Assembly (NCBI GenBank): GCA_028821195.1
Contig: JAPPHB010000064.1
Span: forward strand, 1-64,000
Source: Gammaproteobacteria bacterium
Lineage (GTDB): Bacteria > Gemmatimonadota > Gemmatimonadetes > Longimicrobiales > Gaopeijiaceae
DNA length: 64,000 nucleotides
Reading direction: 5' to 3'
Under the pieces are notes generated by a model. The model did not search any database. It was not told where the DNA came from and worked only from the letters and a program-made list of their open reading frames with translations. This document shows positions 48,944 to 64,000 of this stretch, piece by piece. The stretch's first letter is position 1; the number at the start of each line of letters is the position of its first letter. The translations under genes were made by a program, and so were the position numbers.

Positions 48944-48972
48944 TTGACATCCGACGGGCTGTCGCCTACCCT
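48944..48972 (+). promoter_or_regulatory. candidate sigma70 promoter TTGACA-N17-TACCCT
   Basis: Exact -35 consensus, 17-nt spacer, followed by an operator-like dyad and a CDS start at 49013. Confidence 0.7.
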
Positions 48973-48977
48973 TGTCT

Positions 48978-48991
48978 ACGAAGAACTTCGT
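48978..48991. promoter_or_regulatory. operator-like dyad ACGAAG-AA-CTTCGT
   Basis: Perfect 6-2-6 inverted repeat overlapping the predicted transcription start; same motif at blaI. Confidence 0.7.
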
Positions 48992-49012
48992 GGCCCGGCA
49001 AGGACACCAGAA

Positions 49013-50311
49013 ATGAGTCGAGAGCGATTGACCTGCCCCGGGAGACGCTCCCACACGGCCGTCGCGTGGTCATGCGGTGTACTGTTACTCCTTGGCGCCT
49101 GCGGAGACGGCGGCGAACGCATTCCTTCCCCGGCCCAATTCACCGACTCGGCGGGCGTCGCCATCGTCACCAACCCGTCCGGCGGTGCCATCTACGCTAC
49201 CATCGCCCCGGAGCCGGTGCTCTCCATCGGTGCCATCGACGGCCCGACGGAAGTGCTCTTCGGGCGCATTGCCTCGGTCGCGGTCGACGGCGCCGGCAAT
49301 CTGATTGTTGCCGACGCGCAGATGGATGAGATCCGTATCTTCGACGGGAGCGGTGTCCACCTCCAGACCATTGGGGGCCCCGGAGAGGGGCCGGGCGAAT
49401 TCCGGGCGCTCGCGGGAGCCTGGCCCACGGCGGGGGGCGCCATCGTCGCGGCGGACCAGCGGCTCGACCGCATCACCCGCTTCGGTCCGGAAGGCGAGCT
49501 GCTGGCCACCGCTACCTTCCAGGGCCCGGGCGAGCAGCCCGTGATCCGCCCGATCCGCGTGGCGGGACCGAGCCTTTTCCTCAACCGGGTGGAATCCCTG
49601 AACCTCCCCTCACTGGAGGACACCTCCTTCAGCCTGGAAGATGCCCTCGAATCGATCTCGGACCCTTCCGGAAGCAGATCCGAGTACCTGGTCCGGCACG
49701 ACCTGGAGGGCATCCTGATCGACACGGTCACGGCAGTGCCCGGTCAGGCCACCCAGACTTCCGCACAGGGCAGCGGAACCAATCTGTCGATCCAGATTCT
49801 GCGGCTGCCCTTCTCGTCCGCCGCGGCCGCCACCGCTTCGCCGGAAGGGCGCATGGCCGTGACCACGGGCCGGTCCTACGAATACTCCACCTACGACCCC
49901 TCGGGTACTCTGGAGCGCGTCGTGCGCCTCGCTGAAGAGCCGCCCCTGCGAACCGACACGCACCTCGAGGCGTGGGTTCGGGGCTCCACCGGCGGTCGCG
50001 AACCCATGGACGACGCCCAGGTGGAGGCAGCCCTGCGCCGCTTTCGAGAGATGCCCCTTCCCGACCGGCTCCCCGCCTGGAACTCGCTGGTCATCGCCGA
50101 CGGTGGCGAGATCTGGGCGCGCCGCTTCGCGATCAGGGGCGCCGAGACGGTCGTCCGCGATGTGTTCGGGAGCGACGGAAGCTTGCTGGGCCAGGTGGTG
50201 GCGCCAGCCATCCTTCGCATCCAGCATGTCGGCGACCGGAGCGTGACCGTCATATCCACCGACGATCTGGGTGTCGAGCGCGTGGAGGTGTACGAGCTGC
50301 AGATGCCCTGA
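49013..50311 (+). CDS. 6-bladed beta-propeller (NHL-like) lipoprotein
   Basis: Lipobox LLLGACGD; IASVAVDGAGNLIVADAQMDEIRIFDGSGVHLQTIGGPGEGPGEFRALAGAW. Confidence 0.8.
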   Translation: MSRERLTCPGRRSHTAVAWSCGVLLLLGACGDGGERIPSPAQFTDSAGVAIVTNPSGGAIYATIAPEPVLSIGAIDGPTEVLFGRIASVAVDGAGNLIVADAQMDEIRIFDGSGVHLQTIGGPGEGPGEFRALAGAWPTAGGAIVAADQRLDRITRFGPEGELLATATFQGPGEQPVIRPIRVAGPSLFLNRVESLNLPSLEDTSFSLEDALESISDPSGSRSEYLVRHDLEGILIDTVTAVPGQATQTSAQGSGTNLSIQILRLPFSSAAAATASPEGRMAVTTGRSYEYSTYDPSGTLERVVRLAEEPPLRTDTHLEAWVRGSTGGREPMDDAQVEAALRRFREMPLPDRLPAWNSLVIADGGEIWARRFAIRGAETVVRDVFGSDGSLLGQVVAPAILRIQHVGDRSVTVISTDDLGVERVEVYELQMP

Positions 50312-58083: not shown

Positions 58084-58118
58084 ACACGGCATTGCAGAAG
58101 AGCAGGACGGAGAGCTTG

Positions 58119-58340
58119 ATGACCCAGATCACAGCGCGGGTTTCCGATACGCTTGTCACCGCACTCGACGCAGCCGCGAGAGGGCTGAACCGCAGCCGAG
58201 CCGAGATCGTGCGGCAGGCACTGGAGAGGTACCTGGAGGATTTTGACGATCTCACCGTAACCCTGGAGCGGCTCCGCGATCCGACAGATCCCGTGTTGGA
58301 CTGGGAACAGGTCCGGGATGACCTTCTCAGTTCAGATTAA
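58119..58340 (+). CDS. ribbon-helix-helix (CopG/RelB-like) antitoxin
   Basis: MTQITARVSDTLVTALDAAARGLNRSRAEIVRQALERYLED. Confidence 0.85.
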   Translation: MTQITARVSDTLVTALDAAARGLNRSRAEIVRQALERYLEDFDDLTVTLERLRDPTDPVLDWEQVRDDLLSSD

Positions 58341-58575
58341 GCGTAGCGCGGCCAAGGAACTGGCACGCGTGCCCCAGCAGGACAGGGTTCGGATCGTGGA
58401 GGCCATCGACCGCCTGGCCCAATGGCCTCATACCGGTTCCCCCCTCAAGGGGCAACATCGCGGACTCCGCCGAGTTCGCGTCGGCTCCTACCGAGTGATC
58501 TACGAAGTAATGGATGAAGTGCTTATCGTGCTGGTAGTGCGAGTGGCTCATCGGCGGGATGTCTACCGCAACTGA
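58318..58575 (+). CDS. RelE/ParE family toxin
   Basis: VQIKRSAAKELARVPQQDRVRIVEAIDRLAQWPHTGSPLKGQHRGLRRVRVGSYRVIYEVMDEVLIVLVVRVAHRRDVYR; overlaps the antitoxin gene by 23 bp. Confidence 0.92.
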   Translation: MTFSVQIKRSAAKELARVPQQDRVRIVEAIDRLAQWPHTGSPLKGQHRGLRRVRVGSYRVIYEVMDEVLIVLVVRVAHRRDVYRN

Positions 58576-58624
58576 ATCAAGCGCCAGGATCATCAAGACC
58601 TGCGAATCACAACAAAAGGATCCC

Positions 58625-59227
58625 ATGACTCAGCCTCGCCCTAATTCCGGTCCTCTTCTCGTGATCCTCCTTGCGGCATGTGGAACAGGCGAAGCGCCGA
58701 ACGCGGATGGCGCCCGAGCGTCGGATGGCTCGCCGACATCGCACGACTCCCATGCCTTGCACGCGTCCGGGGACGTGGCGGCGGGTGGTGCCAGCGAGGC
58801 GACCACGACCTTGGCGACTTCGTCCACACGGGCCGTCGCCGATGCCCTCCCCACTGCGCTCGTCTACAAGACGCCGTCCTGCGGCTGCTGCAACCTGTGG
58901 GTCGATCACATGCGCGAGGCCGGCTTCGAGGTGGATGCACGGAACCTGAACGACCTCATCCCGGTGAAGATCGACGCGGGCGTGCCGCCGCGGATGTCGT
59001 CGTGCCACACCGCGCTGATCGACGGCTACGTCGTCGAGGGCCACATCCCGGCCGAGCACGTCAAGCGGCTGCTGGAGGAGCGGCCAGACGTCGTCGGCAT
59101 CGCAGTGCCGGGCATGCCGATCGGCTCCCCTGGGATGGAAGGGATCGGCGCGCGCCCGTACCAGGTGCTGTCGTGGGATCGCGACGGCAACATGGAGGTC
59201 TACGCGGAGGTCGATCCCCGCCGGTAG
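58625..59227 (+). CDS. DUF411 metal-binding lipoprotein
   Basis: Lipobox LLAACGTG; KTPSCGCCNLWVDHMREAGFEV; GVPPRMSSCHTALIDGYVVEGHIPAEHVKRLL. Confidence 0.9.
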   Translation: MTQPRPNSGPLLVILLAACGTGEAPNADGARASDGSPTSHDSHALHASGDVAAGGASEATTTLATSSTRAVADALPTALVYKTPSCGCCNLWVDHMREAGFEVDARNLNDLIPVKIDAGVPPRMSSCHTALIDGYVVEGHIPAEHVKRLLEERPDVVGIAVPGMPIGSPGMEGIGARPYQVLSWDRDGNMEVYAEVDPRR

Positions 59228-62001: not shown

Positions 62002-63222
62002 CTACATCGCGGTCGGCGTTCGCGCGAGGGTCAACACCTGAGGGTGCTCCACGCCCAGTTCGTCCGTCCAGACCCCGAGGACGGCATCCATGGTGATGTC
62101 CATCACCGCGAAGTCGTCCGGTGCCTCCACGGTGCCGAGCCAAGTGCCGTCCGCATCCAGCACCAGCCATGCCTGGGGCCGGCCCTGCTCGCTCCTTCCC
62201 CGGTAGAGCTCCAGCCAGACCGCTCCCGAAGGGTCCACAAGGATGTCCGCGTAGGCGGGGCGAGCCGCCGGGGCCGGGAGTTCTTCGATGAACCGGCGAA
62301 TTGGCGGGGGGAACGTCGCCCCGGGAGGGAGTTCCACGTCGAACTGGGCCTCCCGCTCCGCAGAGACTTCTTCATCAGTCACGCCCAGCGGATAATCCGG
62401 AATGCGCAGTATGCGAACCACGTCGCCGATCACCGAGAGTTCCCGCACCTCCATCAGATCTGCCGACCCCACCAGAATCACGTCGCCGTTCGCGGCCAGG
62501 TGTCCCTCCCTGCCGAACAACGGAGGACCCAGGATCGGCCGATCGTCGATCACCCGTCGTACTTCCTCATAGCCAGCGATCAAGCCGACGCTGTCGATGC
62601 GCGCGCCGCTCAGGTCGTAACGCAGCAGAGCGCTCGAACCTCGAATGATCTGAGGCCCGGGCTCGATTTCCGTGAGCGAGCGGACTTCCACTAGGACCGT
62701 TCCGTCACGAAGGTCATGAAGGTCGAAGACGCGGTCCGCCACATCGAAGGTGTGCGTCGGCACCAGATCGGGCGTGAACACGGTGACCCGGCCTCGCTGG
62801 TCGAGCGCGAGAATCCGGTCCGCCGATGGCTCCACCTTCGAGAGGTTCCGAAACTCGCCCGGCCCGTCTCCGGTGCCTCCGACGGATCCCAGGAATTCTC
62901 CGCTTGACGAATAGAGGCGCACCTCCTGCGAACCTCGGTCGGCAACCATCAACGATCCATCCGGACGCTGCCGGACGTCGCGGACGCGGAAGAACTCGTG
63001 GGAGGGACCGCTCCCGGAGCGCGTCAGGTCGACAAGGGGATCCGGATCGATGCTCTGCAGGCTGGAATCACCCCACAGCGGTCTCAGCGCCTCGATGATT
63101 CGGACACCGGCGCTGTCTCGCTGAACGACCAGGGACGGAACCGGGTCCGGGGCATTGCACGACACGAGACCGGAGACGAGGAGAACCGCGACGGGCTGCA
63201 GAACAGATCTGGCTCTAGGCAC
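62002..63222 (-). CDS. 6-bladed beta-propeller lipoprotein
   Basis: GTG start; lipobox GLVSCNAP; LRDVRQRPDGSLMVADRGSQEVRLYSSSGEFLGSVGGTGDGPGEFRNLSKVE. Confidence 0.8.
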   Translation of the reverse strand: MPRARSVLQPVAVLLVSGLVSCNAPDPVPSLVVQRDSAGVRIIEALRPLWGDSSLQSIDPDPLVDLTRSGSGPSHEFFRVRDVRQRPDGSLMVADRGSQEVRLYSSSGEFLGSVGGTGDGPGEFRNLSKVEPSADRILALDQRGRVTVFTPDLVPTHTFDVADRVFDLHDLRDGTVLVEVRSLTEIEPGPQIIRGSSALLRYDLSGARIDSVGLIAGYEEVRRVIDDRPILGPPLFGREGHLAANGDVILVGSADLMEVRELSVIGDVVRILRIPDYPLGVTDEEVSAEREAQFDVELPPGATFPPPIRRFIEELPAPAARPAYADILVDPSGAVWLELYRGRSEQGRPQAWLVLDADGTWLGTVEAPDDFAVMDITMDAVLGVWTDELGVEHPQVLTLARTPTAM

Positions 63223-63299
63223 GGGCGCCTCACGATTGCGGGTGGACGATGGGCGGACCGCTTTATTGCCCGCGCGGCCAGCGCCGGAGAAGCGATGGG

Positions 63300-63328
63300 A
63301 TCGTAGCGGCCCCAACGGGTCTCGGCAA
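63300..63328 (-). promoter_or_regulatory. candidate promoter for the leftward beta-propeller gene: TTGCCG-N17-TACGAT
   Basis: Reverse strand reading; 17-nt spacer; upstream of the 63222 GTG start. Confidence 0.5.
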
Positions 63329-63360
63329 AGGACTCCGGAATCATTCTACGAAGACCCTCG

Positions 63361-63389
63361 TTGACATCCGGGGAACCATCGGCTACAGT
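63361..63389 (+). promoter_or_regulatory. candidate blaI promoter TTGACA-N17-TACAGT
   Basis: Exact -35 consensus, 17-nt spacer, flanked by dyads. Confidence 0.7.
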
Positions 63390-63396
63390 TCTGACT

Positions 63397-63410
63397 ACGA
63401 AGACCTTCGT
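63397..63410. promoter_or_regulatory. operator-like dyad ACGAAG-AC-CTTCGT
   Basis: Perfect 6-2-6 inverted repeat; imperfect second copy ACGAAG-AC-CCTCGT at 63348-63361. Confidence 0.72.
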
Positions 63411-63513
63411 GAAGCGAGGGCCCGGAGATGGGCTCGAGAGCCGGAGAATCGTTCAAAGCCGACGAGTGAGATGGTTCAATCGGGCGACAGCTGGACGGTG
63501 CGGGGAGCGCAAC

Positions 63514-63921
63514 ATGCCAAGTGAATCAGCCGAATCGAGACGGGAACCGAATCGATTCACCCACCGCGAACTTGACATCATGAGCGTCCTCTGGCGCCGG
63601 GGCTCGGGGACGGTGGCGGAGGTCCGGGACGTCCTCGGGGAGGATGTCGGCTATACGACCGTTCTCAAGATGCTGCAGATCCTGGAGGGCAAGAACGCGG
63701 TTCGCCATGAGAAGGAAGGACGGGCCCACCGCTACTACCCACTGGTCGAATCCGCCGACGCAGGCGGCAGTGCCCTCAAGCGGGTCATGAACAAGATCTT
63801 CCACGGTTCCGCGGAGCTGCTGCTGGCGACGCTGGTCGAGAACCGGGAATTCAGTGACGAGGAGATCGAGCGCTTGCGGTCCATCCTGGATCGTGCCCAG
63901 GAGAAGGAAGACGAAAGATGA
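63514..63921 (+). CDS. BlaI/MecI/CopY family transcriptional regulator
   Basis: FTHRELDIMSVLWRRGSGTVAEVRDVLGEDVGYTTVLKMLQILEGKNAVRHEKEGRAHRYYPLV. Confidence 0.94.
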   Translation: MPSESAESRREPNRFTHRELDIMSVLWRRGSGTVAEVRDVLGEDVGYTTVLKMLQILEGKNAVRHEKEGRAHRYYPLVESADAGGSALKRVMNKIFHGSAELLLATLVENREFSDEEIERLRSILDRAQEKEDER

Positions 63922-64000
63922 TCTTCTGGTGGATGGGCTACGCGGCCGGAATCGGTGTCCTGCTGGCGGTCGGCGGCTGGGCCGGCGAGCGACTCTGCGA
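63918..64000 (+). CDS. start of a membrane protein, probable M56/BlaR1-like (truncated by window edge)
   Basis: ATGA overlap with blaI; MIFWWMGYAAGIGVLLAVGGWAGERLC; assigned mainly by context. Confidence 0.6.
   Translation, partial: MIFWWMGYAAGIGVLLAVGGWAGERLC

Follow-up and report, generated by a model that had tools for sequence, protein, structure and literature searches.

In the bla and mec divergons of S. aureus and B. licheniformis, a Penicillinase_R repressor is co-transcribed with an M56 membrane protease, and autoregulation acts through several operators around the blaI promoter. The B. licheniformis bla divergon has three operators (PMC3305447), and in S. aureus BlaR1 cleaves BlaI directly at Asn101-Phe102 (PMC9834060). 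The classic bla/mec/cop box carries the core TACANNTGTA (PMC7253601). The copper repressors CopY/CopR also have two operators upstream of the operon that they control, and it has been proposed, with reference to BlaI, that one of them obstructs the -35 and the other RNA polymerase (PMC7253601); CopY operators are usually 24-39 bp apart, and the response to metal depends on CXC motifs. In C. thermocellum, BlaI_0696 and BlaI_1845 have small regulons and ordered inverted-repeat pairs upstream of blaI-blaR1 operons, with a motif made of GTCTAT repeats and paired sites that seem strictly required (PMC8457756). BlaI-M56 pairs are numerous in Gemmatimonadota; no target or operator for any of these pairs was reported in the literature searched, and no relevant study on Gemmatimonadota BlaI/M56 or BlaI-M56-TonB was found among the matches listed.

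The locus described here resembles the bla/mec divergons in its repressor-protease pair, in the several operators of its blaI promoter region and in its predicted autoregulation. It differs from them in that the operator core is GAAG..CTTC, the classic core being absent from these operators, in that neither a penicillin-binding sensor domain nor a beta-lactamase target was found, and in that the divergent gene is inconstant and the likely second target lies 14 kb off. Two operators precede the operon as in CopY systems, but they are 49 bp apart and of other sequence, and the repressor lacks CXC motifs. The predicted regulon is small and the inverted repeats upstream of the operon are paired and ordered as in C. 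thermocellum, whereas the motif is different and one of the sites, O3, is single. The system is known in kind, as BlaI-M56 autoregulation; its operator is unfamiliar and its protease partner unusual. For Gemmatimonadota it offers a defined operator sequence, a promoter layout that is conserved and a regulon of two promoters that can be tested, and it hints at a way in which several repressors of the same family could escape cross-talk.

The blaI-M56 operon and its control region

The window (the whole 64-kb stretch of DNA that was analysed) opens contig C66 of a draft genome of 4.2 Mb, whose source we take, from its relatives and the sponge literature, to be an uncultured, sponge-associated member of the Gemmatimonadota. 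An intergenic region of 291 bp (63223-63513) separates blaI (ATG at 63514, forward strand) from a lipoprotein gene read in the opposite direction (GTG at 63222, reverse strand), and is best read as the region through which a blaI-M56 operon regulates itself. The 135-aa product of blaI (63514-63921, forward strand) matched the Penicillinase_R winged-helix family PF03965 with 102.6 bits (cut-off 22.6, E 2.2e-29), and its structural relatives were MecI/BlaI proteins (MecI 1sd6, E 3.2e-11); against the CopY model it reached 54 bits, under the 122-bit cut-off. Six BlaI homologues are encoded in this genome.

As in other BlaI/MecI systems, a gene for a BlaR1-type M56 metallopeptidase (PF05569, 60.1 bits; HEREH motif) is adjacent to blaI. 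Its ATG overlaps the blaI stop (ATGA), and the gene extends on the forward strand from 63918 through the end of the window at 64000 to contig position 65300 (L007:3919-5301). The C-terminal part of the protein resembles a SusC/RagA TonB plug (Pfam); Pfam returned the M56 and this TonB-plug-like part only, with no penicillin-binding sensor domain, and the score against the blaR1 model was 34 bits, far under the 400-bit cut-off. Due to the TonB-plug-like part and the lack of a detected penicillin-binding domain, beta-lactam sensing is not indicated. In an alignment, the residues of the known cleavage bond (Asn-Phe in S. aureus) were not conserved in this BlaI, which makes the protease step uncertain.

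A promoter scan of both strands gave TTGACA (63361-63366) and TACAGT (63384-63389), separated by 17 bp, as the sole promoter-like match (63361-63389, forward strand, 10/12; 0.0 expected in shuffles), and the same spacer was found in 10/10 genus genomes. Around this strong predicted blaI promoter, the first-pass annotation had described an imperfect dyad, ACGAAGACCCTCGT at 63348-63361, meeting the -35, and a perfect dyad, ACGAAGACCTTCGT at 63397-63410, covering the expected blaI start. Both dyads, and all the other elements that it listed, were recovered at their coordinates when the sequence was re-read, and their likeness to BlaI operators placed against the -35 and the predicted start holds as far as sequence can tell. 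Two features had been missed. The dyads belong to one 16-bp element present in two copies 49 bp apart, here named O1 (TACGAAGACCCTCGTT, 63347-63362, forward strand) and O2 (TACGAAGACCTTCGTG, 63396-63411, forward strand), and the last two bases of O1 are the first two of TTGACA. O2 lies 6 bp past the -10, over the predicted transcription start. The centre of both copies reads GAAGACC(C/T)TC, and the general form of the operator is TAC-N10-GTA, here TACGAAG-NN-CTTCGT.

Dyad symmetry by itself was rejected as evidence, as chance alone accounts for a dyad of this kind: the 291 bp contain one perfect 6-bp dyad, against a shuffle mean of 0.7 (P = 0.51). At the level of sequence, the weight is carried by the repetition, rarity and conservation of the sites and not by a single dyad. 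A 16-mer repeated with up to 1 mismatch appeared in 0/200 shuffles of the 291-bp region. Allowing up to 3 mismatches on both strands, TACGAAGACCTTCGT was found five times in the window against 0.73 expected, a count reached in 0/100 shuffles. With up to 1 mismatch, the whole 4.2-Mb genome contained three sites only, namely O1, O2 and O3 (48977), and no further regulon site in this genome at that threshold.

From these data, BlaI very probably represses its own blaI-M56 operon by occupying O1 and O2. A BlaI dimer would bind each 16-bp operator and, with O1 running into the -35 and O2 over the start, the bound repressor would keep RNA polymerase off blaI and the M56 gene transcribed with it.

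Conservation of the promoter-operator layout

Upstream of the blaI orthologue, the arrangement O1-TTGACA-O2 was present in 10/10 genus genomes having this gene, with a spacing of 49-50 bp, so that the inverted repeats at the repressor's own promoter, a feature of the BlaI/MecI family, are conserved here as predicted operators. For the phylum, a set of 80 GTDB loci plus this locus was subjected to a strict test, which demanded a pair of TACG..CGTA sites at a distance of 36-60 bp together with a -35 matching in at least 5/6. The test was passed at 39/81 loci, compared with 0/1620 mononucleotide-shuffled upstream regions. Among the loci that failed, several showed this layout with a TACTA-type operator or had blaI within a longer operon, and a relaxed extraction revealed three half-site classes, TACGAA, TACGG and TACTA, in that layout. 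A strict pattern searched phylum-wide matched 7/200 genomes and proved too narrow to be informative.

An M56 homologue was found near blaI at 69/80 loci. In another genus of the same family (L200-L205), stand-alone M56 genes located apart from blaI have their own O1-TTGACA-O2, which links operator and protease without reliance on gene order.

The first-pass annotation had predicted cooperative control. Cooperation between O1 and O2, by contact between dimers or by DNA looping, would agree with the genus having two similar sites at a distance of about 49 bp and with the paired sites of C. thermocellum BlaI targets (PMC8457756), but O3 is a single site and the spacing in relatives ranges over 42-59 bp (42-50 or 57-59 bp), off any single helical phase, the constant feature being the contact of O1 with the -35. 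As the spacing varies while O1 merges into the -35 throughout the relatives, simple steric exclusion is favoured, and cooperation seems quite improbable.

At L001 (G000:C126, reverse strand), a paralogous blaI of this genome has the arrangement with TACTA sites, the first ending in TTGACA and the second just past the -10; TACTACA-type half-sites were seen only at paralogous repressors such as this one. A second blaI promoter-operator copy is located at a contig end of one relative (G004:C32:119-182), from either a duplication or mixed strains.

The divergent gene and the distant third site

The gene divergent from blaI (62002-63222, reverse strand) encodes a predicted beta-propeller (NHL-like) lipoprotein with the lipobox LVSC, and its GTG at 63222 is accompanied by a GAGG Shine-Dalgarno-like stretch. 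A structural model of low confidence (pLDDT 58) contained repeated strands and had beta-propellers as best structural matches, NHL domains first, which supports a propeller and nothing finer. The leftward promoter proposed for this gene, TTGCCG (63328-63323)-N17-TACGAT (63305-63300), was found on the reverse strand (63300-63328) with its 17-bp spacer, as a weak match (8/12) below the scan threshold. In five genomes with the divergent gene, 76% of the columns in this block were identical, compared with 50-53% in its flanks, a moderate support on which the promoter may well be real. No operator lies over it (63300-63328); it is located about 20 bp beyond O1, the centre of which is near -61 relative to the predicted leftward start. 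A BlaI operator on this promoter was also considered, since its -10 TACGAT is half-site-like, and was rejected because the partner is not conserved in relatives.

The divergent gene is present in 6/10 genus genomes. It is absent from G008, G009 and G001 (L111, L112, L117), where the Cys/Met-metabolism gene that elsewhere lies past it is directly next to the blaI promoter and reads the same way as blaI, and in G006 (L116) it is reduced to a 32-residue remnant, which remains beside blaI (L116:4723-4818) as a scar of gene loss. These four genomes keep O1, the promoter and O2 at the same positions and with almost the same sequence. As the sites persist where the gene was lost (4/10), O1 and O2 appear to serve blaI, and the divergent arrangement to be incidental.

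This bears on whether the region is a true divergon as in bla/mec, with BlaI on O1/O2 controlling blaI together with the divergent lipoprotein gene, the joint control that had been proposed at first. Both genes share the intergenic region and the leftward promoter block is conserved, but that promoter has no operator, and an O1 centred near -61 is too far upstream for its direct block. B. licheniformis offers a precedent, with three operators for blaP and blaIR1 (PMC3305447), and the divergent gene and the O3 target are distantly paralogous; against this, the gene is missing or a remnant in 4/10 genomes with O1/O2 kept, and the same layout recurs across the phylum without it. A divergon is therefore unlikely, and by conservation the divergent gene does not behave as one held under shared operators. 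We favour instead a bystander, apparently independent of BlaI: the gene would have its own weak promoter, no operator, and the position of an inconstant neighbour. BlaI, or opposed RNA polymerases, might still act weakly and indirectly on the leftward promoter.

The third genomic copy of the operator, O3 (TACGAAGAACTTCGTG, 48977-48992, forward strand), lies 4 bp past the -10 of a predicted promoter, TTGACA-N17-TACCCT (48944-48972, forward strand), and overlaps the promoter region of a gene for a 432-aa beta-propeller-like lipoprotein (49013-50311, forward strand; lipobox LGAC; DUF5128/NHL matches weak and under cut-off). This gene is 14 kb from blaI, with a nearly identical position of the site on the promoter, and its product is about 30% identical to the divergent lipoprotein. 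The site was kept in 9/10 genus genomes with the blaI orthologue. In eight of these nine genomes the downstream gene was checked, and in 8/8 it encoded the orthologous lipoprotein (77-100% identical over aligned parts), at a constant operator-to-(-10) distance of 4 bp. As a control, reversed patterns were searched in the genus genomes; the promoter-plus-operator form gave 0 in every genome, and the operator with one mismatch gave 0-2 per genome.

Given the retention of O3 in 9/10 genomes, the gene behind it, and not the divergent neighbour, is likely the second BlaI target, and we conclude that BlaI would repress this distant lipoprotein gene by occupying the single operator O3 on its promoter. 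On the model of BlaR1, the M56 protease would respond to an envelope signal and inactivate BlaI, which would release both promoters. Differential control, also proposed in the first pass, is plausible with a change of partners: the pair would be blaI, with two operators, and the gene at 49013, with one.

Operator classes and a tentative signalling relay

Residue 52 of BlaI lies in the predicted recognition helix and aligns with Thr47 of MecI. Lys at this position accompanied TACGAA operators in 37/37 cases, Ser or Trp accompanied TACGG operators in 25/25 (L057 and L061 having been put in this class by hand after inspection of their O1), and Thr accompanied TACTA operators in 9/9. Operator class thus follows residue 52 in 71/71 repressors, a match that is suggestive of residue 52 setting operator specificity. 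Its covariation was rejected as statistical proof, because the class changes just twice on the tree and the matches are not independent evidence.

Could the dyads instead serve another regulator or belong to an mRNA leader? Their sequence is unlike the classic bla/mec/cop box, and in principle O1, O2 and O3 could be bound by some other protein. However, throughout the phylum the sites are found with blaI and M56 genes, and their changes parallel those of the BlaI recognition helix; O1 is upstream of the predicted start, thus outside the transcript. The idea of an RNA element within the leader of blaI was considered separately and discarded, since there was no Rfam match and about 80 bp of the leader are missing in L112, L114 and L115. 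Non-BlaI readings of the dyads are accordingly very improbable, and BlaI operators are the reading retained.

As to the signal, we put forward a relay not dedicated to beta-lactams, as a possibility rather than an expectation. The inner-membrane M56 protein with its TonB-plug-like domain would sense the state of the envelope or outer membrane and relay it to BlaI, which would govern a minimal two-promoter regulon, the blaI-M56 operon itself and a single propeller lipoprotein. In the same proposal, parallel BlaI-M56 pairs within one Gemmatimonadota genome would be kept apart by the half-sites TACGAA, TACGG and TACTA, read by residue 52 as Lys, Ser/Trp and Thr, respectively.

Elsewhere in the window, a ribbon-helix-helix/ParE-type toxin-antitoxin pair (PF01402, PF05016) was found at 58092-58575, followed at 58559-59227 by a DUF411-domain protein (PF04214) whose listed ORF starts within the end of the ParE gene.
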